This document shows positions 45,015 to 63,231 of a DNA stretch of 64,000 nt, one piece after another. The notes beneath the pieces are model-generated. The model was not told where the DNA came from and did no database searches. It saw only the letters and a program-made list of their open reading frames with translations. Origin of the DNA: Candidatus Scalindua sp. SCAELEC01 (GTDB taxonomy: Bacteria; Planctomycetota; Brocadiia; Brocadiales; Scalinduaceae); contig SHMT01000021.1 of NCBI GenBank assembly GCA_004282745.1, positions 1-64,000 of the forward strand. The letters run 5' to 3'. The position numbers and the translations under genes were made by a program. How positions within the stretch are numbered: position 1 is the stretch's first letter; each line of letters begins with the position of its first letter.

Positions 45015-45440
45015 GATACTAAAACCGATATGGTTTGTGGTTTTACCCGTCCCCGCCAGAAAGAGCGTCGCCCGCCCGGCCTGTCAGCCATACGGACGGG
45101 GGCTGGCGAACGGTTGACAGCCCGGGCAGGCCGGAAACCATATCTTGGTTGCCTGCCCGATAAGTCGTTCAGGCGAGCCATTATCCTTGGACAAAAGGTG
45201 CAAAGGACTTTACTCGCTCAATTGATCTCGGATTTTATCCGAAAACTATTCAGTAGCGTCCGGTTAGGTTTTTGCGTATTAAAGTTATTGCCCCAAAACT
45301 TGTCATTCCCGCATGTTTTTAGCGGGAATCTATGATGAAACGAGTCTTTGGATACCCGATAAAGGCGTTCGGGTATAACGAAAGCCGCATAAGCAAAAAC
45401 CTAACCGGACAATGATAAAAACCATTATGAGATGAGTATA
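45015..45440. repeat. MITE-like element, family B, interrupted copy
   Basis: Reverse-oriented relative of the 35513 element. It is intact except that its right arm is split by the insertion at 45258-45410: GGATTTTATCCGAAAA lies left of the insertion and ACCATTATGAGATGAGTATA to the right. Confidence 0.8.
45258..45410. mobile_element. Small non-autonomous element nested in family B copy
   Basis: 153 bp with perfect 18-bp terminal inverted repeats GTCCGGTTAGGTTTTTGC. AAAAC occurs on both outer flanks and could be a target duplication if the true ends lie about 10 bp further out. The interior contains the hairpin CATTCCCGC/GCGGGAATC, of a type common in many bacterial genomes. No coding frame. 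Confidence 0.75.
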
Positions 45441-45656: not shown

Positions 45657-45682
45657 TTTACACACTTGCAAAGGGATGTAAT

Positions 45683-45756
45683 GGGCGATTAGCTCAGTTG
45701 GCTAGAGCACTTGCTCGACAAGCAAGGGGTCACTGGTTCGAGTCCAGTATCGCCCA
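45683..45756 (+). tRNA. tRNA-Val (anticodon GAC)
   Basis: Complete cloverleaf: acceptor GGGCGAT/ATCGCCC, D stem GCTC/GAGC, anticodon stem CTTGC/GCAAG with loop TCGACAA, five-base variable loop, T arm ACTGG-TTCGAGT-CCAGT, discriminator A. CCA is not encoded. Position 33 is C instead of the near-universal U. The part from the anticodon loop onward recurs twice downstream. Confidence 0.9.
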
Positions 45757-45760
45757 TATT
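45714..45760 (+). repeat. Putative attachment site, copy 1 (inside tRNA-Val)
   Basis: 47-bp core from the anticodon loop through the tRNA 3' end plus TATT. It is identical at 61403-61449 and has one mismatch at 62494-62540. Repeats of this extent are typical of integration sites of tyrosine-recombinase elements. Confidence 0.8.
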
Positions 45761-45884: not shown

Positions 45885-46109
45885 ATGACTAAATTATTAG
45901 AAAAAGCATTTAACCAAGCTTCCAAACTTCCTGATTCATCTCAGGATGCTATTGCGGCCATTATACTGGAAGAATTAGAAGATGAAAAGAAATGGGAAAC
46001 ATCTTTTGCCAATTCGCAAGTCGCTCTTTCTACACTTGCAACAAAGGTACGTAATGAGATTAAACAAGGAGAAACGCTCCCATTTGATCCTGCATCCAGA
46101 ACAAAATGA
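45885..46109 (+). CDS. Antitoxin of a type II toxin-antitoxin pair
   Basis: 74 aa, acidic and helical (MTKLLEKAFNQASKLPDSSQDAIAAIILEEL...). Its stop overlaps the toxin start (ATGA). It is likely to bind and neutralise the RelE/ParE-like toxin and to repress the shared promoter. First cargo pair after the tRNA. Confidence 0.75.
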   Translation: MTKLLEKAFNQASKLPDSSQDAIAAIILEELEDEKKWETSFANSQVALSTLATKVRNEIKQGETLPFDPASRTK

Positions 46110-46375
46110 TATCCCGTACTACGAAAGAGTTTTGGAAACTTTTTGACGCACTTCCCAAAACTATACGAAACCAAACGGTAAAAACCTATAAAGTATGGAA
46201 TAACAATCCTAACCATCCCAGCCTTCATTTTAAATCCATTCACAGTACCGAAACTCTTTATTCCGTTCGTATCAGTCGTGGTTATCGAGCACTGGGACTA
46301 AAGGAAGCTAAAGCTATTACCTGGTTCTGGGTTGGCTCGCATACGGAATACGAGAAACTGATTTCTAGGTATTAG
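46106..46375 (+). CDS. RelE/ParE-like toxin
   Basis: 89 aa with the RelE/ParE fold pattern: FWKLFDALPKTIRNQTVKTYKVW helix pair, then beta strands LYSVRISRGYRALGL and ITWFWVGSHTEYEKLI. Members either cleave mRNA on the ribosome or poison gyrase; the sequence alone does not decide. Co-translated with the preceding antitoxin. Confidence 0.8.
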   Translation: MISRTTKEFWKLFDALPKTIRNQTVKTYKVWNNNPNHPSLHFKSIHSTETLYSVRISRGYRALGLKEAKAITWFWVGSHTEYEKLISRY

Positions 46376-48272: not shown

Positions 48273-49631
48273 TTAAGTGATTGTCTCACAATTTTCAATC
48301 TCACTTTTCTTGCAGTCCCTATCTTTTGCTTCTAATCTGCCATACCTGTCCCATGCCTTATAAAGGCATCTTCCCTTTTCATGACAAAGTAAGAACTTCC
48401 CGCAGGCATGGCATTCAGACCCCTTATAATTGTTATGAGGTGGAGAAATAATATTAGCAAATTTTGGATCATGCCAAGCTCTAGCAAGGGATACTTTCCT
48501 TAAGTCTTCACCTCTAAGATGGTCCATATGAATTAGTTTGTAACATCGATGGACAATTCCGTTAGGAAGAAAAAAAAGCTTAGTTTTTCCGATATCACAT
48601 GTATATCCTTTGTTTAAATCTTTATCAAGACCTCGAAATTTTTCTATTCTGAGATAAGAAAATTTATTGCTCAGCTGTTCTAACTTTCTTTCCACTTCAG
48701 CTTCTCTTTTTATTTCCATATCCTCGTTGGTATACTTTCCCATAGGACTAACAACGGGCACAAAGGAGACAAACTGAAGTACTTTTGCTCCAAATTTGGC
48801 TGCAAAGGCAGCCACTTTATCCATACCGCTCAATGTGAATGATGTTAAAACCGTTTGAATTGAAAAGGCAACACCTGCCTTTTGGAGGTTTACTACTGAT
48901 TTTTTAACTTGCGTGGCATATCTTCCTGAACCGATTAAGGTTTTGTTAATTTTCCTATCAACAGAATCTATTGAAAGGGATATATGTCTCACTCCCGCTT
49001 CTGCAAATTGCAATGCCAACTCTTCTGATATTGGACCTTTTGTTGTCAAAAGAGGATTTATTCCCGATTTTATTGAATCACCCATTATTTTTGGTAGGTC
49101 CCGTCTGAGTAAAGGTTCAGCTCCACCAATGAGCAAGTACTCGCATCCAAGTGTGGAAGCTTCATTAAATATTTTCTTCAAACAGCTATTTTCGATAAGG
49201 GAATCCCTGGCTTTTCGTCCTCGTATAGGTTGTGCAAAGCAATAAACGCAACGTCTATAACAGTATGATGTTGACCACCAGTGAAGGATTTTTGGACCTG
49301 GGAAAGTGCGGAGTCCCTCTGAGAGGTTAGGAGGTTTTACCCTGGCTAATGTTTCCAAATTATAAGGAATTTCCCTTAATTGCGATTTTAAGGAGAGCAA
49401 GGGTTTCAAACGGAAAACAAGAAAATCCAAAATTTTATCTCCTTTCTCCACTATTCGATTCATGATTTCTCTATTCTCACTATGTGTTCGTGTTCCATTC
49501 ATAAGCTTGAGCGCAACCGATTCTGTACCAGAAAGGGCACATACAGCTTGTTTGGTAACTCTAGAACAAACATAGCCAAGGCCCCTCTCAATCCTATATT
49601 CCCAAACTTTATCGAGTGAATATTTCTGCAT
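48273..49631 (-). CDS. Radical SAM/SPASM protein with RRE-like N-terminus (second of pair)
   Basis: 452 aa. N-terminal about 85 residues (YSLDKVWEYRIERGLGY to a leucine-rich helix) resemble a PqqD-type recognition element. The radical SAM cluster motif is C124-x3-C128-x2-C131 (CYRRCVYC), with GGAEP following. The SPASM/twitch part has TCDIGKT, HRCYK, CHACGKFLLC and GRC, enough for auxiliary clusters. Such enzymes modify ribosomal peptides. Its ATG overlaps the stop of the upstream radical SAM gene by one base (TGATG), so the two are translationally coupled. Confidence 0.85.
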   Translation of the reverse strand: MQKYSLDKVWEYRIERGLGYVCSRVTKQAVCALSGTESVALKLMNGTRTHSENREIMNRIVEKGDKILDFLVFRLKPLLSLKSQLREIPYNLETLARVKPPNLSEGLRTFPGPKILHWWSTSYCYRRCVYCFAQPIRGRKARDSLIENSCLKKIFNEASTLGCEYLLIGGAEPLLRRDLPKIMGDSIKSGINPLLTTKGPISEELALQFAEAGVRHISLSIDSVDRKINKTLIGSGRYATQVKKSVVNLQKAGVAFSIQTVLTSFTLSGMDKVAAFAAKFGAKVLQFVSFVPVVSPMGKYTNEDMEIKREAEVERKLEQLSNKFSYLRIEKFRGLDKDLNKGYTCDIGKTKLFFLPNGIVHRCYKLIHMDHLRGEDLRKVSLARAWHDPKFANIISPPHNNYKGSECHACGKFLLCHEKGRCLYKAWDRYGRLEAKDRDCKKSEIENCETIT

Positions 49632-51022
49632 CAGTTTCCTTTCAAACAGAAATCATCTTTTTCATACAAAGAACCGTAGCGAGAAATTGCTGAATAATAA
49701 CACCTTCCCCTATTTTCACATAATTGAAATGAAGAACATCCATCGCACTCCGTGCCTTTGTAAAAAGCAGATGATGGTTTGCTTAGTTGTAAAAACCGTT
49801 TACTATTCCAAGTTTCCTGAATGGTGCATTCCATAAGAGACCCAATAATCATTTCTTTATGGTAAGGAAGGTAATGGCAATGAGTCACACTTCCATCAGG
49901 GAGGAGATGTAGTTCTTCAAAAGCAACACCACAAATCTTCTGGTTCATGTTTAAACTTATTTCTTTCAACTTGGAGCTCCCATAAAATTTAATTTCGACC
50001 TTGTGGCCATATTTCTCTTGTAGTTCATCAAGTTTTATCTTCACCATGTCTTTTTTTGAGGGGACAAGAGAGTTGTCAGAAAATATATCATTCAATTGAG
50101 GCCTAAAGGTGGATAGAGTTAATTTTGGAATACCGTATTGTACAGCGAGTTTAAACAAATTTTCTAAGGAATTGATATTGATGGAAGTAAGCACAGTGTT
50201 GAGTTCAATGGGAATACCTGCTTCCATAATGGCTGTAATGGCAATTATAGCTTCTTCCCAAAAGTTGCGCGAACCTGTTAATACAGAAGTTTCTTTGGGT
50301 AGTGTGGAATCAAGGGAGTAAGTAATTCTAGTCGTTCCAGCCGCAGCAAGATCCTTTGCCTGAGAGGCAGTTATGGCAAATTTAGTAACAAGGTGAGTTC
50401 GTATTCTAGAGGATGTTGCTGCCGTAATAATCTCCTTCAAGTCTTTCCTTAGTAGGGGTTCACCTCCTGTAAGATGGAGATTTGATACACCAATCTCAGA
50501 CATTTCAGACACCATTTCCAATGCTCTTTTTAGAGGAAAGCTGGCATCCGGCGGGGATTTTTCATTTAAGGCTGAATAAGAGGTGACCTCATAAAAACAA
50601 TAGGGACACTTTCGATTACATGAAAGAGTAACCAACCATGTTAATGAGGATGGAGCTGCCTCGCGGCGTTGGGTTTGTCTTTGTCTTAAACGATTAATAT
50701 TAAGGCGCTTAAGCCAACTAAGGTTTAATTTTTTGGGGTGACTGGGGCCGAGGTAAGTCCAGTAACGTTCCAAAACACGATCCACCCATTGTTTTCCCAT
50801 AGAGTTTCCAATGCTTAACGAACAAGCCGTTTTAGCCTTATTAACGTCACCAGATTCAGAGAGGAAGGTAAGTGCTAGAGCCTCGCCAACGGAGAGTTGG
50901 TGTTTTACCTTCGACCCTTTACGGAAAAGGTAGGGTTCTCCTTTATAAAGGTCTATTGTGACATCTGGTTGCAAATAAAACTTCGTATGGTAATTACCAA
51001 TTTCCCGTTGCATTATTAACAA
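49631..51022 (-). CDS. Radical SAM/SPASM protein with RRE-like N-terminus (first of pair)
   Basis: 463 aa. Residues about 10-90 (FYLQPDVTIDLYKGEPYLF ... LSVGEALALTFL) again look like a PqqD-type peptide-binding domain. C135-x3-C139-x2-C142 (CNRKCPYC), then LTGGEPLLRKDL. The SPASM region holds CGVAF, HCHYLPY, CDGCSSFQLC, GRC and a final Cys. It starts 98 bp after the 65-aa Cys-Cys peptide gene, its likely substrate. The product chemistry cannot be read from the sequence. Confidence 0.87.
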   Translation of the reverse strand: MLIMQREIGNYHTKFYLQPDVTIDLYKGEPYLFRKGSKVKHQLSVGEALALTFLSESGDVNKAKTACSLSIGNSMGKQWVDRVLERYWTYLGPSHPKKLNLSWLKRLNINRLRQRQTQRREAAPSSLTWLVTLSCNRKCPYCFYEVTSYSALNEKSPPDASFPLKRALEMVSEMSEIGVSNLHLTGGEPLLRKDLKEIITAATSSRIRTHLVTKFAITASQAKDLAAAGTTRITYSLDSTLPKETSVLTGSRNFWEEAIIAITAIMEAGIPIELNTVLTSININSLENLFKLAVQYGIPKLTLSTFRPQLNDIFSDNSLVPSKKDMVKIKLDELQEKYGHKVEIKFYGSSKLKEISLNMNQKICGVAFEELHLLPDGSVTHCHYLPYHKEMIIGSLMECTIQETWNSKRFLQLSKPSSAFYKGTECDGCSSFQLCENRGRCYYSAISRYGSLYEKDDFCLKGN

Positions 51023-51120
51023 TTAAAAAAAGGAAGCATTCATAAATAAAGAATTATTTTTTAAGAAACACACAGCGTTATCATAATTGGAGCAAAACAT
51101 GGCTCCCTAATTTTGATTTC

Positions 51121-51318
51121 TTATTTTCCCACTCTCTCTATTTGCTCTAGATCTACCTTTACAAGAGCAACCGTTCCAGCACTACAACAAGTAGCAACAC
51201 TATCTAAATGTCCTATAACTTCCGCCGGCACTTTCTCTAACAATTTTCGAACTTGGAAAATTGCCTTTTCACCGATTTCAGCCCTTTCATAGATAGTTTG
51301 TTTTCCTTTACCTTCCAT
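51121..51318 (-). CDS. 65-aa Cys-Cys peptide, candidate RiPP precursor
   Basis: From the ATG at 51318 (GGAG nine bases upstream; an in-frame ATG nine bases earlier overlaps that site). A charged helical first part (residues 1-38, TIYERAEIGEKAIFQVRKLL) is followed by a small-residue segment with vicinal cysteines C44-C45 (VATCCSAGTVALVKVDL). Position directly before two radical SAM/SPASM genes on the same strand makes it the best candidate for the modified peptide. No known precursor family is recognised. Confidence 0.6.
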   Translation of the reverse strand: MEGKGKQTIYERAEIGEKAIFQVRKLLEKVPAEVIGHLDSVATCCSAGTVALVKVDLEQIERVGK

Positions 51319-51424
51319 AATTACCATCTCCTTTCTATAATTCTGTTATTTTTGAATGCCCCTTTCTTTTCCCCTGAGCAAATATTTCTTTTTCCAGGAG
51401 TAAAAGTGTTACCTACCTTCCAAT

Positions 51425-51562
51425 TTAACGAAGCATGAATCCTTCTGGATCATTCAGTGCGTAAGTACCCTTGTCTGATTTACAGGATACCTTCTTATCC
51501 ATCTTGTTTTTCCAATCGATAAAGATCTTTAACTTCTGGTTCAACGTTTTCTTTGGCGGCAT
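51425..51562 (-). CDS. 45-aa small ORF, alternative frame
   Basis: Frame beginning MPPKKTLNQKLKIFIDWK and ending in LNDPEGFMLR. It overlaps the 32-aa frame. No ribosome site precedes its first ATG; an internal ATG at 51502 (25 aa, MDKKVSC...) overlaps the stop of the 32-aa frame (ATGGATAA) and could be reached by coupling, or the two could be one gene joined by frameshift. Confidence 0.3.
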   Translation of the reverse strand: MPPKKTLNQKLKIFIDWKNKMDKKVSCKSDKGTYALNDPEGFMLR

Positions 51563-51593
51563 CTAAGAAAGTTGTATTGTCGACTTTTTTCAT
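51495..51593 (-). CDS. 32-aa peptide upstream of the Cys-Cys peptide
   Basis: Starts MKKVDNTTFLDAAKENVEPE with a strong ribosome site (AGGGAG six bases before the ATG) and ends KQDG. Too short to classify. Its position in the radical SAM cluster and good initiation signal make translation likely; it may be a second precursor or a truncated one. Confidence 0.4.
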   Translation of the reverse strand: MKKVDNTTFLDAAKENVEPEVKDLYRLEKQDG

Positions 51594-51777
51594 CTCTATC
51601 TCCCTGCGTTTAAGTTACCGCAAGATATATCTGTTTTTCTAAATAATTATAACAGTAATACACTGCCAGAAATATATAAACTCAGTATCTTTCGAATGTC
51701 ATGAAAATTTCAGTTTCAAAAATAATAAAACATAAGTTGTCCTTGTTAGATGGTTACAAAGTTGTTTTTGTACTGTC

Positions 51778-52240
51778 TCATGACGCCATACCAGGAATAG
51801 TATTACTTTGCCTGTTTTCTATTGTATCCTCTATATTATCCGGTAGTTCCCATAGAAAACCTAACACACTTTTATCCTCAATTTCATCAATGGAAACAAG
51901 GTGGTCGTGTATATTATCTCCACTTGGTGTATCCTGATTTAATATATAAGTTGTTGTTTTTGTGACTGCAATGTTTTAGTTTTGTTTGAAAATAATTTTC
52001 CAGTAGCCACTGGGAATTTTGTGTGGTTCGTCGGCGTCTGGCAACATTGACATATCTTTTACTTATAAAGTGCCAGTAATGACAAAAATGGTATATTGCT
52101 CGACAAGCACTCGGATTTTTGTATCCGCCACTCCTTCAATTTTAACCACTGGTTTTGTTGGGGTAGATATCAATGGGTTAAGTTTGATCCTCAACTCTAT
52201 TATTTGAAATTTAATTTTACCTTAACCGTAAAAATTGGAT
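51778..52240 (-). pseudogene. Decayed DNA/RNA non-specific endonuclease (NucA/Endonuclease_NS) C-terminus
   Basis: Reading leftward one sees YTIFVITGTL, a stop (TAA), then ADEPHKIPSGYWKII, another stop, then TTTYILNQDTPSGDN, HLVSIDEIEDKSVLGFL and WELPDNIEDTIE. These line up with the C-terminal half of NucA-type nucleases (ITG, VPS.WK, VSxDEIE...GFDF). The DRGH catalytic part is missing. It lies between the DUF11 lipoprotein and the micro-ORFs. Confidence 0.65.
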
Positions 52241-52320
52241 TACCATGTCGGGTGTAATGGATGAAGAGGAATCTCTCAGCTCTACCCTATCCCAATTTAA
52301 TAACGAACTAATTTAAATTT

Positions 52321-53310
52321 TTATGGAGATACTATCAATACTGCTTGAGCATTACTTCCTGCCGGAAAACCACGAACAAACGCTTTTGCTCTGTTCACAA
52401 TTTTACCTGATTGGTTTACTTGCACTTCAATTTCCAAGTTAACAGTATTTCTAGCTCCTAAGCTACCGATTTCCCAAATACCGGTATTCGTATTATAACT
52501 TCCATTACTATTGTCTGATACGTAAGTTACCCCATTTGGTAAAATGTCTCTCACTTCTATGCTTGCCGCACTACAATTTCCCATATTTGTAAGTGTTATT
52601 TCGTATGTAACATGATCTCCCACTTTGGGAGAACTTGGATTCACACTCTTTTTTAGAGACAAATCGAAGCAGTCTTTAACTTTAACTTCGTCACAATCGG
52701 TAGCTACGATGACACCTTCTTTATTTTTGTTACAATTATCACAAATATTTCCTGATGGATATAAGTCATCATATCCACCTATCACTCTGCCTTCCAGAGC
52801 TAGATCATTACTAAACTCATTCAATTGAGGAAATTTCTTAAACAGGTCTGTTGCTGGAAAAGCATTAGGTGGGCAGAAAATCTCAGGACATAAAGTTTCC
52901 CAAAAGTCAATTAAGTTTGGCCTTTTCACAAGAATTTTATCGAAACCGCATAAAACATCATAAGTATCAACCAAACCCGGAATGATAGCTCTTATTATAT
53001 AGATTTCTCCGCCTACTAAATTTGCAAAAATGTTATCACCTTCTTGTTTATGAGGGATCATTTTTAAGTTGTTTCCTTTGTAATGCAAGAGCATAACGTT
53101 ATCAAACATATATTCAATTTTCTGCAAACGTTTGAGTGATATTTTCACGTTTTTAAGATCTTGCCCAACTGGTCCTTTAGTCCGTACTGCTACAGCTTCA
53201 TCTAGTAGTGTAAAAACATTATTTGGGACAGTTACTGGAACAATTTTACATCCAGCAATCAAGACCATAACTAAAAATAATGAGATAACTATTCTTTGCA
53301 TTTTTTCCAC
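52321..53310 (-). CDS. Lipoprotein with C-terminal DUF11 domain
   Basis: 329 aa. Signal with lipobox LIAGC (Cys21 by count). The middle (about 30-205) is not recognised; it contains four nearby cysteines (NICDNCNKNKEG, DCDEVKVKDCFD). Residues about 210-329 are a DUF11 surface repeat: LSLKKSVNPSSPKVGDHVTYEITLTN and DILPNGVTYVSDN. DUF11 domains occur in secreted wall or surface proteins. It lies inside the radical SAM cluster on the same strand, so it may be an exported partner. Confidence 0.75.
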   Translation of the reverse strand: MEKMQRIVISLFLVMVLIAGCKIVPVTVPNNVFTLLDEAVAVRTKGPVGQDLKNVKISLKRLQKIEYMFDNVMLLHYKGNNLKMIPHKQEGDNIFANLVGGEIYIIRAIIPGLVDTYDVLCGFDKILVKRPNLIDFWETLCPEIFCPPNAFPATDLFKKFPQLNEFSNDLALEGRVIGGYDDLYPSGNICDNCNKNKEGVIVATDCDEVKVKDCFDLSLKKSVNPSSPKVGDHVTYEITLTNMGNCSAASIEVRDILPNGVTYVSDNSNGSYNTNTGIWEIGSLGARNTVNLEIEVQVNQSGKIVNRAKAFVRGFPAGSNAQAVLIVSP

Positions 53311-53635
53311 CTCTTTCGTATTAGACTATTCGATAATATGATATAGTAAAAAAATGTAGCGATTGAAAAAAAGGTTTATTTGTTGGATGTTTATCTGAAA
53401 CATAATAGTCAATTGTGTTTCAAACTAGTTTTGTTCGGTACCAAATTACATGTGAAAACGTTTATTACTACACAATACCTAATGCAAGAGAGCGGGAGAT
53501 TACTGTTTGGTAACCGCCGCTTCTTGCGTTTAGGTTCTTGTGTCAGTTCGTTAATTTCTCCCTTAAATGCATTAGTTCAAGGGGGGTATTTTATTTCTTC
53601 TTTGATTATTCCCAACAGAAAAACACTTGCAGTCA

Positions 53636-54607
53636 TTAAGTGGTTTGATACTGTTCTGCTCTTGAACCGCGTTTCCCACGCATGAATGCAGGATCCTCTA
53701 TCGCATCCTCCCATTCGGACGATTCATAACAATATGGTATATCTTTCTTGTAAATATGGCCAAGTTTTGATCCGTGCCAGATACTGTCCAGATTCTCATA
53801 TTTAAGATTCCCTACAATAGCATGGGTACATCGACTACAGGCTCTCACATCCAGGTCTGGGTCGATGACGATCTGCGTAAAGCCCGCAACACAAGGAGCT
53901 CCAGTCGCACTGTACGTGGTCGAGTTGCACTCATCGGTTGGGAGTCTGATTTGGAGATCATATGTATCCCGGATGTTTCCGAGAGTCTCCCAAATTTTTT
54001 GCATGTCCACCGTTTCTGAACGTAAGTATTGGTCTCCCTGATCAAGGAAAGGCACAGACTTAAACGGCATAATATGAAAATGTCTAGTCAGATGTTTTGC
54101 CGCAACAATAGTCTTAACGACTTGCTCTATATTCTGTGATGAGACTACTATAGCGATTGTTAGCGAAACGCCCGCATCCCTCAAAAACTCCAGATTCTTT
54201 AAAACCCTTGATCCATTTCCACGCGTCTTATCGTTCGTGTCCGGATCAATGGCGTCAAGAGACACTTGCATCGGGAAAGAGCCCTTTTTCCTGATGATTT
54301 CCTTCATATAAACAACGTTCTCTTGCTTTATGTAGGTGCCGTTGCTAAGTATTGTTACATGTTCGAATTCATTGTGAGCGTACTTTAGTATATTGTTTAT
54401 TTCTGGATGTAGGAATGGTTCACCACCACTGAGAGTAAGAAAAAACAACTTCTGTGCTTTGAGTATGTTAACGACCTTCCTGAAGTTAATCATTGTCATA
54501 TGTTCATGTTTTCTGGGCTGAAAGAAACAGTATTCGCACTTAAGGTTGCAAACACCTGTAATATTTACTGTGGCCCATAGAGGGCTGTTAGGTCTTTTTT
54601 GTGTCAT
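53636..54607 (-). CDS. Radical SAM protein of the PqqD-associated pair
   Basis: 323 aa from ATG 54607, which has AAGGAG ten bases upstream; an upstream in-frame ATG at 54730 lies inside the PqqD gene. Cluster motif C20-x3-C24-x2-C27 (CNLKCEYC), then LSGGEPFLHPE. The C-terminal part has CVAGFTQIVIDPDLDVRACSRCTHAIVGNL, a shortened SPASM-like segment with fewer cysteines than the other two. It probably works with the PqqD-like protein encoded 34 bp upstream. Confidence 0.85.
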   Translation of the reverse strand: MTQKRPNSPLWATVNITGVCNLKCEYCFFQPRKHEHMTMINFRKVVNILKAQKLFFLTLSGGEPFLHPEINNILKYAHNEFEHVTILSNGTYIKQENVVYMKEIIRKKGSFPMQVSLDAIDPDTNDKTRGNGSRVLKNLEFLRDAGVSLTIAIVVSSQNIEQVVKTIVAAKHLTRHFHIMPFKSVPFLDQGDQYLRSETVDMQKIWETLGNIRDTYDLQIRLPTDECNSTTYSATGAPCVAGFTQIVIDPDLDVRACSRCTHAIVGNLKYENLDSIWHGSKLGHIYKKDIPYCYESSEWEDAIEDPAFMRGKRGSRAEQYQTT

Positions 54608-54641
54608 CGTAAGAATCTCCTTATGTTTTTTTGGAACAACC

Positions 54642-55061
54642 TCATTTTTTGTTGAGGGTTTTCTCGCATGAATCAGTACTTTCGGAAATCTGAGCAAGTA
54701 GCATGTGAAGATCACTTTCCCGCACTCCATATTCTTGAACGGCTTTTTTCAAACCGGTACCCTCTTGGAGGGTCATCAAAACCTTATATGCCTCATCATC
54801 AAGTTCGAAGACTCGATTGGTGTCTGGATTCCAAAGAAGCGCACCAAAATCTTCCTTCCGGATATACCAACTCATCCAATCTTTCTTTCTCGATACCAAA
54901 TCCATCGGATTTTGAAACTTCGAAAAATCAAGTATGCAACAAAATCCGTCGCAGCAAAGCATCCATGCTTGTTGATCACCGAGCTTCTTGAACTGATTCT
55001 TATCCCGTACTGCATCAATCAGATCCTGGTGGAGTTTTGACAGGTACAATTTTGCTTTCAT
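54642..55061 (-). CDS. PqqD-like peptide-recognition protein with Cys-rich N-terminus
   Basis: 139 aa. Residues about 65-125 (WYIRKEDFGALLWNPDTNRVFELDDEAYKVL, then a helical end) fit the PqqD/RRE fold that delivers precursor peptides to radical SAM enzymes. The additional N-terminal 60 residues contain CC-DGF-CC (residues 36-42), unusual for PqqD proteins; this part might bind metal or be a fused substrate segment. First clear gene of the unit containing the radical SAM gene at 53636. Confidence 0.7.
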   Translation of the reverse strand: MKAKLYLSKLHQDLIDAVRDKNQFKKLGDQQAWMLCCDGFCCILDFSKFQNPMDLVSRKKDWMSWYIRKEDFGALLWNPDTNRVFELDDEAYKVLMTLQEGTGLKKAVQEYGVRESDLHMLLAQISESTDSCEKTLNKK

Positions 55062-55216
55062 AAGTAATTCCTCCTATAATGTGGTAAAAAAAACAGTTGT
55101 TCAACCTAAAGACTAAGTGATGCAACTACGATACCATTTCATATTTGAATATAGACATACTTGTAAGCTCTTGTAAAAAGGAGATATAAAGGACAAGTCC
55201 TTAATTTAAGGATGAA

Positions 55217-55265
55217 GTTTTGTTACAACAAAATAACAAAAAATGTTATTTGTCTGTAACAAAAC
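55217..55265. terminator. Long perfect-to-near-perfect hairpin upstream of the PqqD gene
   Basis: GTTTTGTTACA (55217-55227) pairs with TGTAACAAAAC (55255-55265), and ACAAAATAACA with TGTTATTTGT inside, with two single-base bulges and an A5 loop: about 21 bp. It lacks a U-tract, so it may be an operator or processing site instead of a terminator. Confidence 0.5.
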
Positions 55266-55322
55266 AAAGAAGAGAAAGTAAAACATATAATGGTTTTATG
55301 AAATGATGTTGAATCTTAAGAG

Positions 55323-55442
55323 TCAATATTGCTTTATTTGTATATGAATGAATAGTGGAGATTTCTGGTAACTTCCACAATGTGGGCATTTCGTCGCTCC
55401 GTAATATATATCACATTTGCAAGCAAAATATCTTTTACTCAT
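55323..55442 (-). CDS. 39-aa zinc-ribbon-like peptide
   Basis: ATG at 55442 with AAGGTG five to six bases upstream. CKCDIYYGATKCPHCG gives CxC...CxxC, a zinc-ribbon pattern. The rest is basic and hydrophobic. It precedes the PqqD gene on the same strand by 260 bp with the hairpin between them. Could be a small regulator or a remnant of a larger ribbon protein. Confidence 0.4.
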   Translation of the reverse strand: MSKRYFACKCDIYYGATKCPHCGSYQKSPLFIHIQIKQY

Positions 55443-55900: not shown

Positions 55901-56091
55901 TGAGGTGGCCTGGTTTGTCAAGACCATTTTTTGTTATTTTTTAGATGCATTACTTAATGATCAGTACGGGACAAAATGTGTAACGGAAGGAGCTCGTAGG
56001 GCGACTGGAGTTACACATTTTTTGAATTCTCAAACCACTCCTCCTTGCCTATTTTTTATCTAAAAATAATTCTTTTTGGTGCTACTGTCCT

Positions 56092-56928
56092 TTACAGCTT
56101 TCTCCCATAATGAACCTCAACAGGAGTTCTGTATTCTAACGATTGATGATATCTCCGATTGTTATAAAACAAGAAATAACTTCTTAAACCCTCACGGGCA
56201 TCCTTATATACCTGATAGTTTTTTATATACACCTCCTCATACTTTACGCTCCTCCAAAGCCTTTCTGTAAAAATATTATCAAATACCCGACCTCGACCAT
56301 CCATACTGATCTCTATCCCACTACTTAAAAGAATTCCGGTAAAATAATTACTCGTAAATTGGGATCCCTGATCACTGTTAAATATCTTAGGACAACCTTT
56401 TTCTAAAGCATCCTTCAATGCTTCCGTACAAAAGTTCACATCAAGTGAATTGCTCAATCGCCAAGACAAAACGTAACGGCTGAACCAGTCGATAATAGCT
56501 ACAAGATATAAAAATCCCTGTCTTAGACGAATGTATGTGATATCTGTACCCCATACCTGTTCTGGATTATCGATCTTCACATCACCCAGTAAATAGGGAT
56601 ATACCTTGTGCTCAGGATGTTTCTTGCTTGTTTTTAACCTGGGATAGATTGCCCGCAATCCCATTTGACGCATGAATGCCTGAACCCTTTCTCTACCTAT
56701 TTCAAAACCCTCACGCCTTAACGCCTCCCGTATCTTTCGACTTCCATAAAACGGACATTCTGTGAAAATCTCATCTATACGGTGCATTATCCATACAGAC
56801 TCCTCAGATACTTTTACAGGCTCGTAATAATAGCTTGATCTATGCAACCCCAAAAGTTCACACTGTCTGCGAATACTTAAATTACCATGCCCCGGTTCTA
56901 TTAAACTCCTTCTCTCCTCAATGCTCAA
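56092..56928 (-). CDS. IS3-family transposase OrfB (DDE)
   Basis: 278 aa. HTH_21-like start, then the rve catalytic core with D in VWGTDITYI, D in FNSDQGSQFTS and E in FTERLWRSVKYEEVY, ending YNNRRYHQSLEYRTPVEVH. It overlaps orfA by 11 bp. Expression as an OrfAB fusion by -1 frameshift at the A9 run before the overlap is usual for the family. Intact. Confidence 0.95.
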   Translation of the reverse strand: MSIEERRSLIEPGHGNLSIRRQCELLGLHRSSYYYEPVKVSEESVWIMHRIDEIFTECPFYGSRKIREALRREGFEIGRERVQAFMRQMGLRAIYPRLKTSKKHPEHKVYPYLLGDVKIDNPEQVWGTDITYIRLRQGFLYLVAIIDWFSRYVLSWRLSNSLDVNFCTEALKDALEKGCPKIFNSDQGSQFTSNYFTGILLSSGIEISMDGRGRVFDNIFTERLWRSVKYEEVYIKNYQVYKDAREGLRSYFLFYNNRRYHQSLEYRTPVEVHYGRKL

Positions 56929-57202
56929 ACAACAGAGATTTTTTTTTAAGCCATTCGTTTTCTACTTTTAGTTGGCCGATCTGCCTATACAGCTCATCAA
57001 CCAACTTCTCGTTTTCTTTGTTTGTCTTTTCCTGCTTCCCCTTGAATACTTCTCTAACACCTACCAATGCACGTTTGCGCCAATCTACTAATTGTGTCCT
57101 GTGTACTTCGTATCTGGATGACAACTCCGCTATTGTCTTTTCTTCCTTAATAGCTTCCAATGCTACTTTTGATTTAAAGTCCGCATTAAAACTCTTTCTC
57201 AT
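56918..57202 (-). CDS. IS3-family transposase OrfA
   Basis: 94 aa HTH_Tnp_1 protein (FNADFKSKVALEAIKEEKTIAEL, then a leucine-zipper-like helix). It ends in a run of nine A residues (KKK codons) that is a likely slippery site for frameshifting into orfB. Confidence 0.92.
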   Translation of the reverse strand: MRKSFNADFKSKVALEAIKEEKTIAELSSRYEVHRTQLVDWRKRALVGVREVFKGKQEKTNKENEKLVDELYRQIGQLKVENEWLKKKSLLFEH

Positions 57203-60698: not shown

Positions 60699-61202
60699 AG
60701 AAAAAGGTTGTCCTAAGATATTTAACAGTGATCAGGGATCCCAATTTACGAGTAATTATTTTACCGGAATTCTTTTAAGTAGTGGGATAGAGATCAGTAT
60801 GGATGGTCGAGGTCGGGTATTTGATAATATTTTTACAGAAAGGCTTTGGAGGAGCGTAAAGTATGAGGAGGTGTATATAAAAAACTATCAGGTATATAAG
60901 GATGCCCGTGAGGGTTTAAGAAGTTATTTCTTGTTTTATAACAATCGGAGATATCATCAATCGTTAGAATACAGAACTCCTGTTGAGGTTCATTATGGGA
61001 GAAAGCTGTAAAGGACAGTAGCACCAAAAAGAATTATTTTTAGATAAAAAATAGGCAAGGAGGAGTGGTTTGAGAATTCAAAAAATGTGTAACTCCAGTC
61101 GCCCTACGAGCTCCTTCCGTTACACATTTTGTCCCGTACTGATCATTAAGTAATGCATCTAAAAAATAACAAAAAATGGTCTTGACAAATCAGACCACCT
61201 CA
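60699..61202 (+). mobile_element. 3' fragment of the IS3 element, inverted
   Basis: About 500 bp matching 55901-56405 in reverse orientation. It contains the last third of orfB (60717-61011), whose translated C-terminus is identical to that of the full copy over 70 residues. The two copies flank a 4.3-kb segment as inverted repeats. Confidence 0.9.
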
Positions 61203-61402
61203 TTTCCCCATATATTACCTCCTGGGATTATGCGATATACTATTGTAGTCAAAACGTAGTCAACTCCAACGGAATCAGTCGGACTCAACCGGAATCAACA
61301 GGAAAACAAATTAAATGTAAGTCTTTCTGTATTAAAGTGATAGCGACATAACAGACACAATTTCAGGCACTTACGGAATATGTTAAAAATACCCTGCCCT
61401 CA
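61203..61402. other. Gap with imperfect tandem repeat
   Basis: About 200 bp; near 61260-61305 a unit like CAACxGGAATCA recurs two to three times. No gene. Confidence 0.4.
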
Positions 61403-61449
61403 CTCGACAAGCAAGGGGTCACTGGTTCGAGTCCAGTATCGCCCATATT
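61403..61449 (+). repeat. Putative attachment site, copy 2
   Basis: 47 bp identical to tRNA-Val positions 45714-45760. Only the 3' part of the tRNA is present, so it is not a tRNA gene. Confidence 0.85.
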
Positions 61450-61617
61450 GTCATATAAGGAGTTAGGAGAAGTGGTTGAGGGGCATGAATCAAATATGAA
61501 ATTTAGCAAAGGCAGCGTGATTAGAAAAACTATCTGTTGCTGACGTAGCACTATATTTTTAGAAGTAGCAAGATTTGCGATTATATTGTTCTATGAATTG
61601 AGTACTGACCATGTTTC

Positions 61618-61941
61618 TTATAAGTTTTTAACAGGTATCCCTTCTTTTTTTATTTCCCATGCCAAAGGATCCTCATCTACAAATGTTTCCGGCGTGAATG
61701 GTACTGGCTCTAACCTTGGATCAATATTAGAAGAGAGCTTCATCAAACGGATCCTTTCTTCAAAACGATCATTAGTAAAGTCAGGAGATATAACAGCCAG
61801 ATCAATATCACTGGATTTATGGACATTGCCTTTTGCATATGATCCAAAAAGGTAGATTGCTTCAACGAGAATACCATCTTCATCTAATTTCATAATAAAC
61901 CTGCGAATGGTATCTAAAATTAGAGAATTGACTTTAACCAT
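61618..61941 (-). CDS. Nucleotidyltransferase (MNT) antitoxin-type protein
   Basis: 107 aa minimal nucleotidyltransferase: IYLFGSYAKGNVHKSSDIDLAV is the GS...DxD motif. In HEPN/MNT modules this protein neutralises the HEPN toxin, in MntA by AMPylation. It overlaps the HEPN gene by 22 bp. Confidence 0.88.
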   Translation of the reverse strand: MVKVNSLILDTIRRFIMKLDEDGILVEAIYLFGSYAKGNVHKSSDIDLAVISPDFTNDRFEERIRLMKLSSNIDPRLEPVPFTPETFVDEDPLAWEIKKEGIPVKNL

Positions 61942-62306
61942 TTGAAAACCTCTTCTATTTGAATTAACTCATTTTTGGTAAAACCTTCGGTACACTTTTT
62001 CCTGAAATCTCTTTTTTCATCCGGGTATCTTGATTCAAGATTAAATGCCGTAATCCTGATAAGTTCATTTTGCATATCTTCTGATAATTGAATATCTGAT
62101 AATTCTGCAAGTCTCTTAAGATTATGAATATAAGGTGCATGCATTTTTTTTCTGGCTACATAGAGAGCCTTTAAAAGTTTTTCGATGGCAAGATGACCAA
62201 AGAAAAGAGAATAAGAATAGTCTCTTTTCTCAAAAAGATGCCATGCTACTTGTAATGCCTCATCTGCTTCTACCAACCAGAAACTTTGTACTTTTTGTAT
62301 ATCCAT
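61920..62306 (-). CDS. HEPN domain toxin-type protein
   Basis: 128 aa helical. YSYSLFFGHLAIEKLLKALYVARKKMHAPYIHNLKRL is the core HEPN pattern; a clear Rx4-6H RNase motif is not obvious (RKKMH is close). First gene of the HEPN/MNT pair. The pair is all that lies between attachment-site copies 2 and 3. Confidence 0.85.
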   Translation of the reverse strand: MDIQKVQSFWLVEADEALQVAWHLFEKRDYSYSLFFGHLAIEKLLKALYVARKKMHAPYIHNLKRLAELSDIQLSEDMQNELIRITAFNLESRYPDEKRDFRKKCTEGFTKNELIQIEEVFKWLKSIL

Positions 62307-62493
62307 AATGTGGCATTAATAAGAATCATTTTTAAAACTCTACTTATTAGAACAAATCTATTACAATTGTCAAGTAAGCAAACCAAAACAGGCCAAAACA
62401 GGAAGTAAATTAAACTCTCTGTTTTGGCCTTAAACCTAAGTAACACAAAACAGTTAGAACTAGACTGAAAAACTCTAACGCTTCTTTCTCCTG

Positions 62494-62540
62494 CTCGACA
62501 AGCAAGGGGTCACTGGTTCGAGTCCAGTATCGCCTATATT
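62494..62540 (+). repeat. Putative attachment site, copy 3
   Basis: 47 bp matching the tRNA-Val core with one mismatch (CGCCTATATT for CGCCCATATT). Confidence 0.85.
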
Positions 62541-62702
62541 ACTCACTTGAGACATATTAATGAGTGTCCTAATCGGTAGTATTTTGGCTAGGGATATATG
62601 TGTAAGTTTTTCTCGAGAGGATGTTCCTAGTGATCCTGTTTCTTTTGCCAGCTTTCTGCGATGAAGGGAGTTAACTATTTGGAAGATGACTATCTTAAGC
62701 GA

Positions 62703-62942
62703 TTAGCCTTTCAAAGTTCGAAATTGATCAACAGTCAATCCTGCATCATTTAAAATAGCCTTTAAGGTTTTGCGTCTTATTGTCTTACCTGAATGTATTG
62801 GTACATTAGTTCTTCGTTTATCACTAGCTCTTTTATAAATGGCGTGACTGCTTCCGGACTGGCGGATAAATTGAAATCCGATAGACTCTAAGACCTTGAC
62901 AACCTCTTTTGAAGTAACGACAGGGAATCTCTTTGATGTCAC
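62703..62942 (-). CDS. hicA: HicA toxin
   Basis: 79 aa dsRBD-like mRNA interferase: TSKEVVKVLESIGFQFIRQSGSSHAIYKR with the catalytic His in SSHAIY, and HSGKTIRRKTLKAILNDAGL. Overlaps the end of hicB by 4 bp; here antitoxin comes first. Confidence 0.93.
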   Translation of the reverse strand: MTSKRFPVVTSKEVVKVLESIGFQFIRQSGSSHAIYKRASDKRRTNVPIHSGKTIRRKTLKAILNDAGLTVDQFRTLKG

Positions 62943-63172
62943 ACTGCTACCTTCAAAGAGGTTATAGTAAATTCTTCATCGGGTATCTTTTCTCCATTCT
63001 TTAAATAATCTTCTATAAAGGCATTAATAGTTTTCCGCATTTCAGATATCGTTTCTTCATATGTATCTCCTTCTACATGGCAACCCTGAAAGGCAGGACA
63101 CTGAGCAAAGTACCCACCCTCTTCACAAGGTTCCACAATAACAGCAAATCTGTATGTTTTATCTTTGCTCAT
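62939..63172 (-). CDS. hicB: HicB antitoxin
   Basis: 77 aa from ATG 63172, chosen for the perfect AAGGAGG site upstream (an in-frame ATG at 63217 would add 15). RNase H-like fold: YRFAVIVEPCEEGGYFAQCPAFQGCHVEGDTYEET. No C-terminal DNA-binding domain, so it is the short type. Confidence 0.93.
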   Translation of the reverse strand: MSKDKTYRFAVIVEPCEEGGYFAQCPAFQGCHVEGDTYEETISEMRKTINAFIEDYLKNGEKIPDEEFTITSLKVAV

Positions 63173-63231
63173 TCTGATTACCTCCTTAATCTTTAAAAGT
63201 TTTTTGTAATGATACATCTTTTATGTATTAA

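Follow-up and report, generated by a model that had tools for sequence, protein, structure and literature searches.

What do the radical SAM enzymes encoded side by side on this DNA act on, and do they all serve one pathway? A preliminary description of the 64,000-nt stretch analyzed here (the window), which sits within an 81.7-kb contig of a 4.6-Mb genome, had pointed to a single undescribed peptide-modification cluster of three such enzymes, a PqqD-like protein, a lipoprotein and a small peptide with two adjacent cysteines. The named genes are all present and all lie on the minus strand. The explanation that we favor, with a probability of roughly two in three, is that a mobile island carries a RiPP module in which two of the enzymes, termed P2 and P1, jointly modify the 65-aa peptide. 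The PqqD-like gene, the third enzyme gene (R3) and the lipoprotein gene probably make up another unit of the island, distinct from the first.

The peptide gene and enzymes P2 and P1

The candidate precursor peptide is encoded at 51121..51318 (minus strand) and has the sequence MEGKGKQTIYERAEIGEKAIFQVRKLLEKVPAEVIGHLDSVATCCSAGTVALVKVDLEQIERVGK, with its two cysteines at Cys44-Cys45. This 65-aa gene is real, beyond chance, because three measures agree. Its SD, at -14.0 kcal/mol, is the lowest among the cluster's candidate starts, a value reached by 8 of the 6341 start-like triplets in the whole window; Markov shuffles yield an ORF of at least 65 aa with an SD as strong in 0.1% of cases; and the codon log-odds is +15.5 in the peptide frame, whereas the other frames give -3.3 and -7.0. 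The peptide of the preliminary description is thus a genuine gene. It lies directly upstream of P2-P1, with 107 bp between its stop codon and the P2 start. An attenuator in this gap was considered and is not claimed, as the fold is no better than that of shuffles (z -0.35). On the other side of the peptide gene, a 32-aa micro-ORF (51495..51593, minus strand; SD -8.1, coding-like codons) may represent either another small gene or one with a frameshift. Beyond it lies the remnant of a DNA/RNA non-specific endonuclease gene, interrupted by two stops (51778..52194, minus strand), which matches Pfam PF01223 at E 2.3e-6 when translated with X at the stops and which separates the two enzyme units. 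In the region where micro-ORFs had been noted earlier, the segment at 51.78-52.19 kb thus has to be reread as a decayed gene.

P2 (49631..51013, minus strand; 460 aa from the ATG at 51013) and P1 (48273..49631, minus strand; 452 aa) have the same architecture of an RRE-like N-terminus, a radical SAM domain and a SPASM domain with seven cysteines. The P2 stop and the P1 start share one nucleotide (TAATG), and the P2 start is without a clear SD. The CxxxCxxC motif is intact in both enzymes, as CNRKCPYC in P2 and CYRRCVYC in P1, with Pfam Radical_SAM E-values of 7e-20 and 9e-17, respectively, and the Radical_SAM and SPASM domains score above the Pfam cut-offs in P1, P2 and R3. All seven SPASM cysteines are kept in both P1 and P2; C361, C379, C423, C426, C432 and C438 of P2 are invariant across seven aligned members of the family, C456 is present in most, and the spacing is CX2CX5CX5C. 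The cluster-binding motifs, the SPASM cysteines and the start-stop overlap had all been read correctly from the letters. In NCBIfam, both enzymes score far under every listed cut-off (StsB, PapB, SkfB, GeoRSP, PqqE and mycofactocin), with, for example, 77 bits for StsB versus 625 and 61 bits for PapB versus 340. TIGR03913, a three-enzyme GDL-peptide system for whose accession a literature search turned up no paper, is outside the best 25 NCBIfam matches of P1 or P2. A role in antiphage defense, raised by matches to the PADLOC viperin models, was rejected because those models cover the shared radical SAM core only.

The preliminary description had also proposed that both SPASM enzymes carry their own RRE, and here three lines of evidence converge. 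AlphaFold2 models of P1 and P2 were built from a 12-row alignment and have an overall pLDDT of 62-64; even the best N-terminal blocks reach a confidence of only about 55-68. Both modeled N-termini have a strand-strand-helix-helix-helix order: strands 18-22 and 36-40 and helices 42-54, 57-68 and 70-88 in P2, and strands 19-22 and 29-33 and helices 35-44, 50-60 and 64-79 in P1. Structural alignment places P2 on SuiB 5v1s (Z 23.3, 332 residues, rmsd 4.2) and P1 on SuiB 5v1t (Z 22.8, 344 residues, rmsd 4.2), and the alignments to SuiB and SkfB span the N-terminal region through the SPASM domain. A profile of the family N-terminus also matches the PqqD profile in hhalign (E 6.9e-5, probability 63%, 44 columns). 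Taken together, the models, the structural alignments and the profile match argue with moderate strength that the P1 and P2 N-termini are PqqD/RRE-like.

Relatives of the enzymes and known two-enzyme systems

A search with an alignment of P1, P2 and one planctomycete relative found Pseudoalteromonas genomes of three species (L014-L016), each with three tandem RRE-radical SAM/SPASM genes, small Cys peptides upstream and ABC transporter genes after them. These are the closest P1/P2 relatives found, with best pairs at about 28-32% identity. They share with the window tandem enzyme genes and CC-containing peptides directly upstream, and they differ in number, with three enzymes against the window's two, two to three peptides against one, and transporter genes against none. 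The conserved Pseudoalteromonas trio, at 3536-10344 of L014 and in the same region of L015 and L016, is accompanied by EGCSSCCS peptides and looks uncharacterized; its third enzyme scores 62 against TIGR03913, for which the cut-off is 592. Three further genomes, two from the same order and a third from the same class, each have a single family member beside Cys-rich peptides. The two same-order loci (L019 and L023) resemble the window in having an enzyme of this family adjoined by a short Cys peptide, but each has one enzyme, and the peptide is rich in Cys-Xaa-Xaa-Xaa repeats (TIGR04117-like, with a match below the cut-off) and unrelated in sequence to the 65-aa peptide. At L023 (4405-7166, genome G040) there are two such CXXX-repeat-like peptides, and the adjoining enzyme frame is broken into 403 + 79 aa. 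Overall, one to three short Cys-containing peptides adjoin the enzyme(s) in 6/6 outside loci examined, which supports a link between enzyme and short Cys peptide across the family.

The P1/P2 enzyme family is rare, and none of its members has been studied. At the threshold used, members turned up in 3 out of 392 genomes from the phylum, the window's own genome included, and the 321 genomes from the class of Pseudoalteromonas added none beyond the starting genome. A single-sequence scan of genome contigs with P2 returned no relative, tblastn against plasmids gave only matches of 22-26% identity, and neither the enzyme alignment nor R3 found anything in scans of viral sequences. In the tree, which has long branches and leaves the finer placement unsure, P1 and P2 are sisters (95/95) next to two Pseudoalteromonas enzymes (86/91). 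A family HMM built without P1 and P2 scores P2 at 274 bits and P1 at 223, with Rhizobium and Mesorhizobium plasmid enzymes close behind P1 at 185-187, and R3 at 82. Searches for homologues of the peptide covered plasmids, viral contigs and 98 related genomes and produced nothing beyond a single weak hit (E 0.08); a comparison with the PDB gave a chance-level match only. Because no homologue turned up in the collections searched, co-evolution of the peptide with the enzymes is unproven.

The preliminary description regarded the composition of the cluster as undescribed, which is too strong for its core module, because thuricin CD and thuricin Z/huazacin also pair precursor(s) with two RRE-radical SAM/SPASM enzymes. 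In thuricin CD, the TrnA and TrnB precursors are encoded with two divergent radical SAM/SPASM enzymes, TrnC and TrnD, which carry RREs and work as a single complex, not one after the other, with radical chemistry strictly needed from TrnC only (PMC12093266). In thuricin Z/huazacin, the ThzA precursor accompanies the enzymes ThzC and ThzD (PMC8172795). The layout of a precursor and two radical SAM/SPASM enzymes is therefore already known, from a few Bacillus antibiotics, and the window shares with both the small precursor gene and the two enzyme genes. Unlike the window, the two Bacillus clusters contain ABC transporter genes. In the window there is a single CC-peptide, and the enzymes fall well short of the listed curated cut-offs; no transporter gene was recognized between tRNA-Val and the outer att-like copy described below, and neither an exporter nor a leader protease was recognized in the cluster. 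SuiB (streptide), SkfB and CteB combine an RRE with radical SAM and SPASM domains as P1 and P2 do and are among their best structural matches, where the aligned sequences are about 13-19% identical. What is new here at the level of sequence is a pair of enzymes below the listed NCBIfam cut-offs and a peptide unmatched in the collections searched.

By analogy with these systems, we infer how the module would work. The ~40 N-terminal residues of the peptide would serve as the leader, and the core would extend from about residue 40 and include Cys44-Cys45. P2 and P1, products of overlapping genes, would each bind the leader through the N-terminal RRE and would cooperate, probably in a heteromeric pair like that of thuricin CD. 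The cross-links that they introduce into the core by radical chemistry would most likely be thioethers formed from the two adjacent cysteines. Few examples of two-enzyme radical SAM systems exist, and the need for two has been closely studied in thuricin CD. A distant family in which the window has two enzymes and Pseudoalteromonas three offers independent cases for asking whether paired maturases always form a complex, and, if the proposal is true, it adds a peptide-modifying system from Planctomycetota. A bolder version, which we consider possible but doubtful, is that these rare clusters in Planctomycetota and Pseudoalteromonas represent a new RiPP class in which a CC core receives an undescribed linkage pattern from two or three paralogous RRE-radical SAM/SPASM enzymes working jointly.

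The probable second unit and competing explanations

Upstream of the endonuclease remnant lies a lipoprotein gene (52321..53301, minus strand) with the lipobox IAGC and one DUF11 domain (Pfam E 2.5e-28). R3 (53636..54607, minus strand) is a radical SAM enzyme with a short SPASM-like tail; a longer R3 ORF would start at 54730, without an SD. In the tree, R3 falls in a clade other than that of P1 and P2, together with the radical SAM protein of 4.8-kb Klebsiella plasmids and a 7.7-kb Escherichia plasmid. The R3-related genes on such small plasmids are found at 1349-2239 of L025 and 2810-3700 of L026. A search of 98 related genomes with a threshold of E 1e-30 gave no R3 relative. The outermost gene (54642..55061, minus strand) encodes a 139-aa protein whose C-terminal half is weakly MftB/PqqD-like. 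The gene called PqqD-like at first reading is thus there, and its assignment is weak, with a match to MftB at E 0.001 that is below the cut-off and a profile comparison that gave no confirmation of PqqD. Its N-terminal half contains CCDGFCC, which is unexpected for an RRE protein. At E 1e-4, a search of 199 genomes from the phylum gave no relative of the protein.

A rival view joins all six genes in one pathway: the PqqD-like protein and R3 would act early, P2 and P1 would follow, and the product would be anchored or carried by the lipoprotein. The common strand and island of the genes favor it, but we find such a pathway rather improbable. R3 clusters with the enzymes of small enterobacterial plasmids, apart from P1 and P2, and the decayed endonuclease gene splits the two units; for these two reasons the units are provisionally treated as separate, and the single three-enzyme cluster first envisaged is not upheld. 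Moreover, no outside family locus examined has, among its ORFs as read, an R3-like gene and a DUF11 lipoprotein beside its peptide and enzymes. A different substrate, such as the lipoprotein or a peptide from another locus, with the 65-aa gene encoding a regulator or an immunity factor, seems to us unlikely. It would suit the lack of any peptide homologue that would show linkage, as well as the two cysteines of a peptide whose counterparts beside related enzymes mostly have three or more, but the position of the peptide gene, the strength of its SD and its Cys pair all fit the precursors of related loci.

The state of the island bears on a further reading. The endonuclease remnant and the IS copy are signs of decay that could mean that the module is inactive. 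That the whole cluster is a decaying, functionless remnant would agree with these features, with the possible micro-ORF frameshift, and with the failure to recognize either an exporter or an integrase, the latter among the island ORFs of at least 90 aa and the proteins scanned. Against it are the intact frames of P1, P2, R3, the lipoprotein and the peptide, the coding-like codon use in the peptide, R3 and lipoprotein frames, and the complete metal-binding motifs, and we judge it improbable. Finally, the best NCBIfam matches of P1 and P2 include PqqE and the mycofactocin maturase, and PqqE also ranks among the best structural matches, as would be expected if P1 and P2 made a redox cofactor like PqqE or MftC do. 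The bit scores speak otherwise, at 100 for P2 with PqqE versus a cut-off of 381 and 90 for P1 with mycofactocin versus 265, and on the family HMM PqqE itself (122 bits) is far under P1 and P2. PqqA carries Glu-x-x-x-Tyr and MftA ends in a C-terminal Val-Tyr; the 65-aa peptide has neither, and a cofactor role is very improbable. Joint modification of the 65-aa peptide by P2 and P1 is thus the reading that we retain.

The island and its insertion site

The preliminary description placed these genes inside a tRNA island. The island itself is borne out, with a single tRNA gene in the window rather than several: tRNA-Val(gac) at 45682..45757 (plus strand) is the integration site. Copies of its 3'-end recur on the plus strand as an internal att-like repeat at 61401..61454 and an outer one at 62492..62545, from which point the window is collinear with the empty site of a congener. 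In that same-genus genome the tRNA-Val site is uninterrupted, and the DNA directly 3' of it is 83% identical to window 62492-63199. The segment 45760-62491 is therefore an acquired insertion with one att-like copy inside, and the cluster is borne by the part at 45.76-61.4 kb.

Several smaller elements accompany the cluster. IS3-family transposase genes lie upstream of it (56092..57202, minus strand). A perfect 504-nt inverted repeat joins 55901-56404 to 60699-61202; since the first copy overlaps an IS3 transposase gene, the second is probably an IS fragment. Between the two tRNA-Val 3'-end copies, window 61401-62545 forms a small tandem island unit with a nucleotidyltransferase/HEPN pair. At the opposite edge of the island, two small genes at 45885-46375, the second ParE-like, are a probable toxin-antitoxin module. 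A short repeat with 22-nt inverted arms at 45241-45414 is a MITE-like dispersed element, with many similar copies in a congener (G001).
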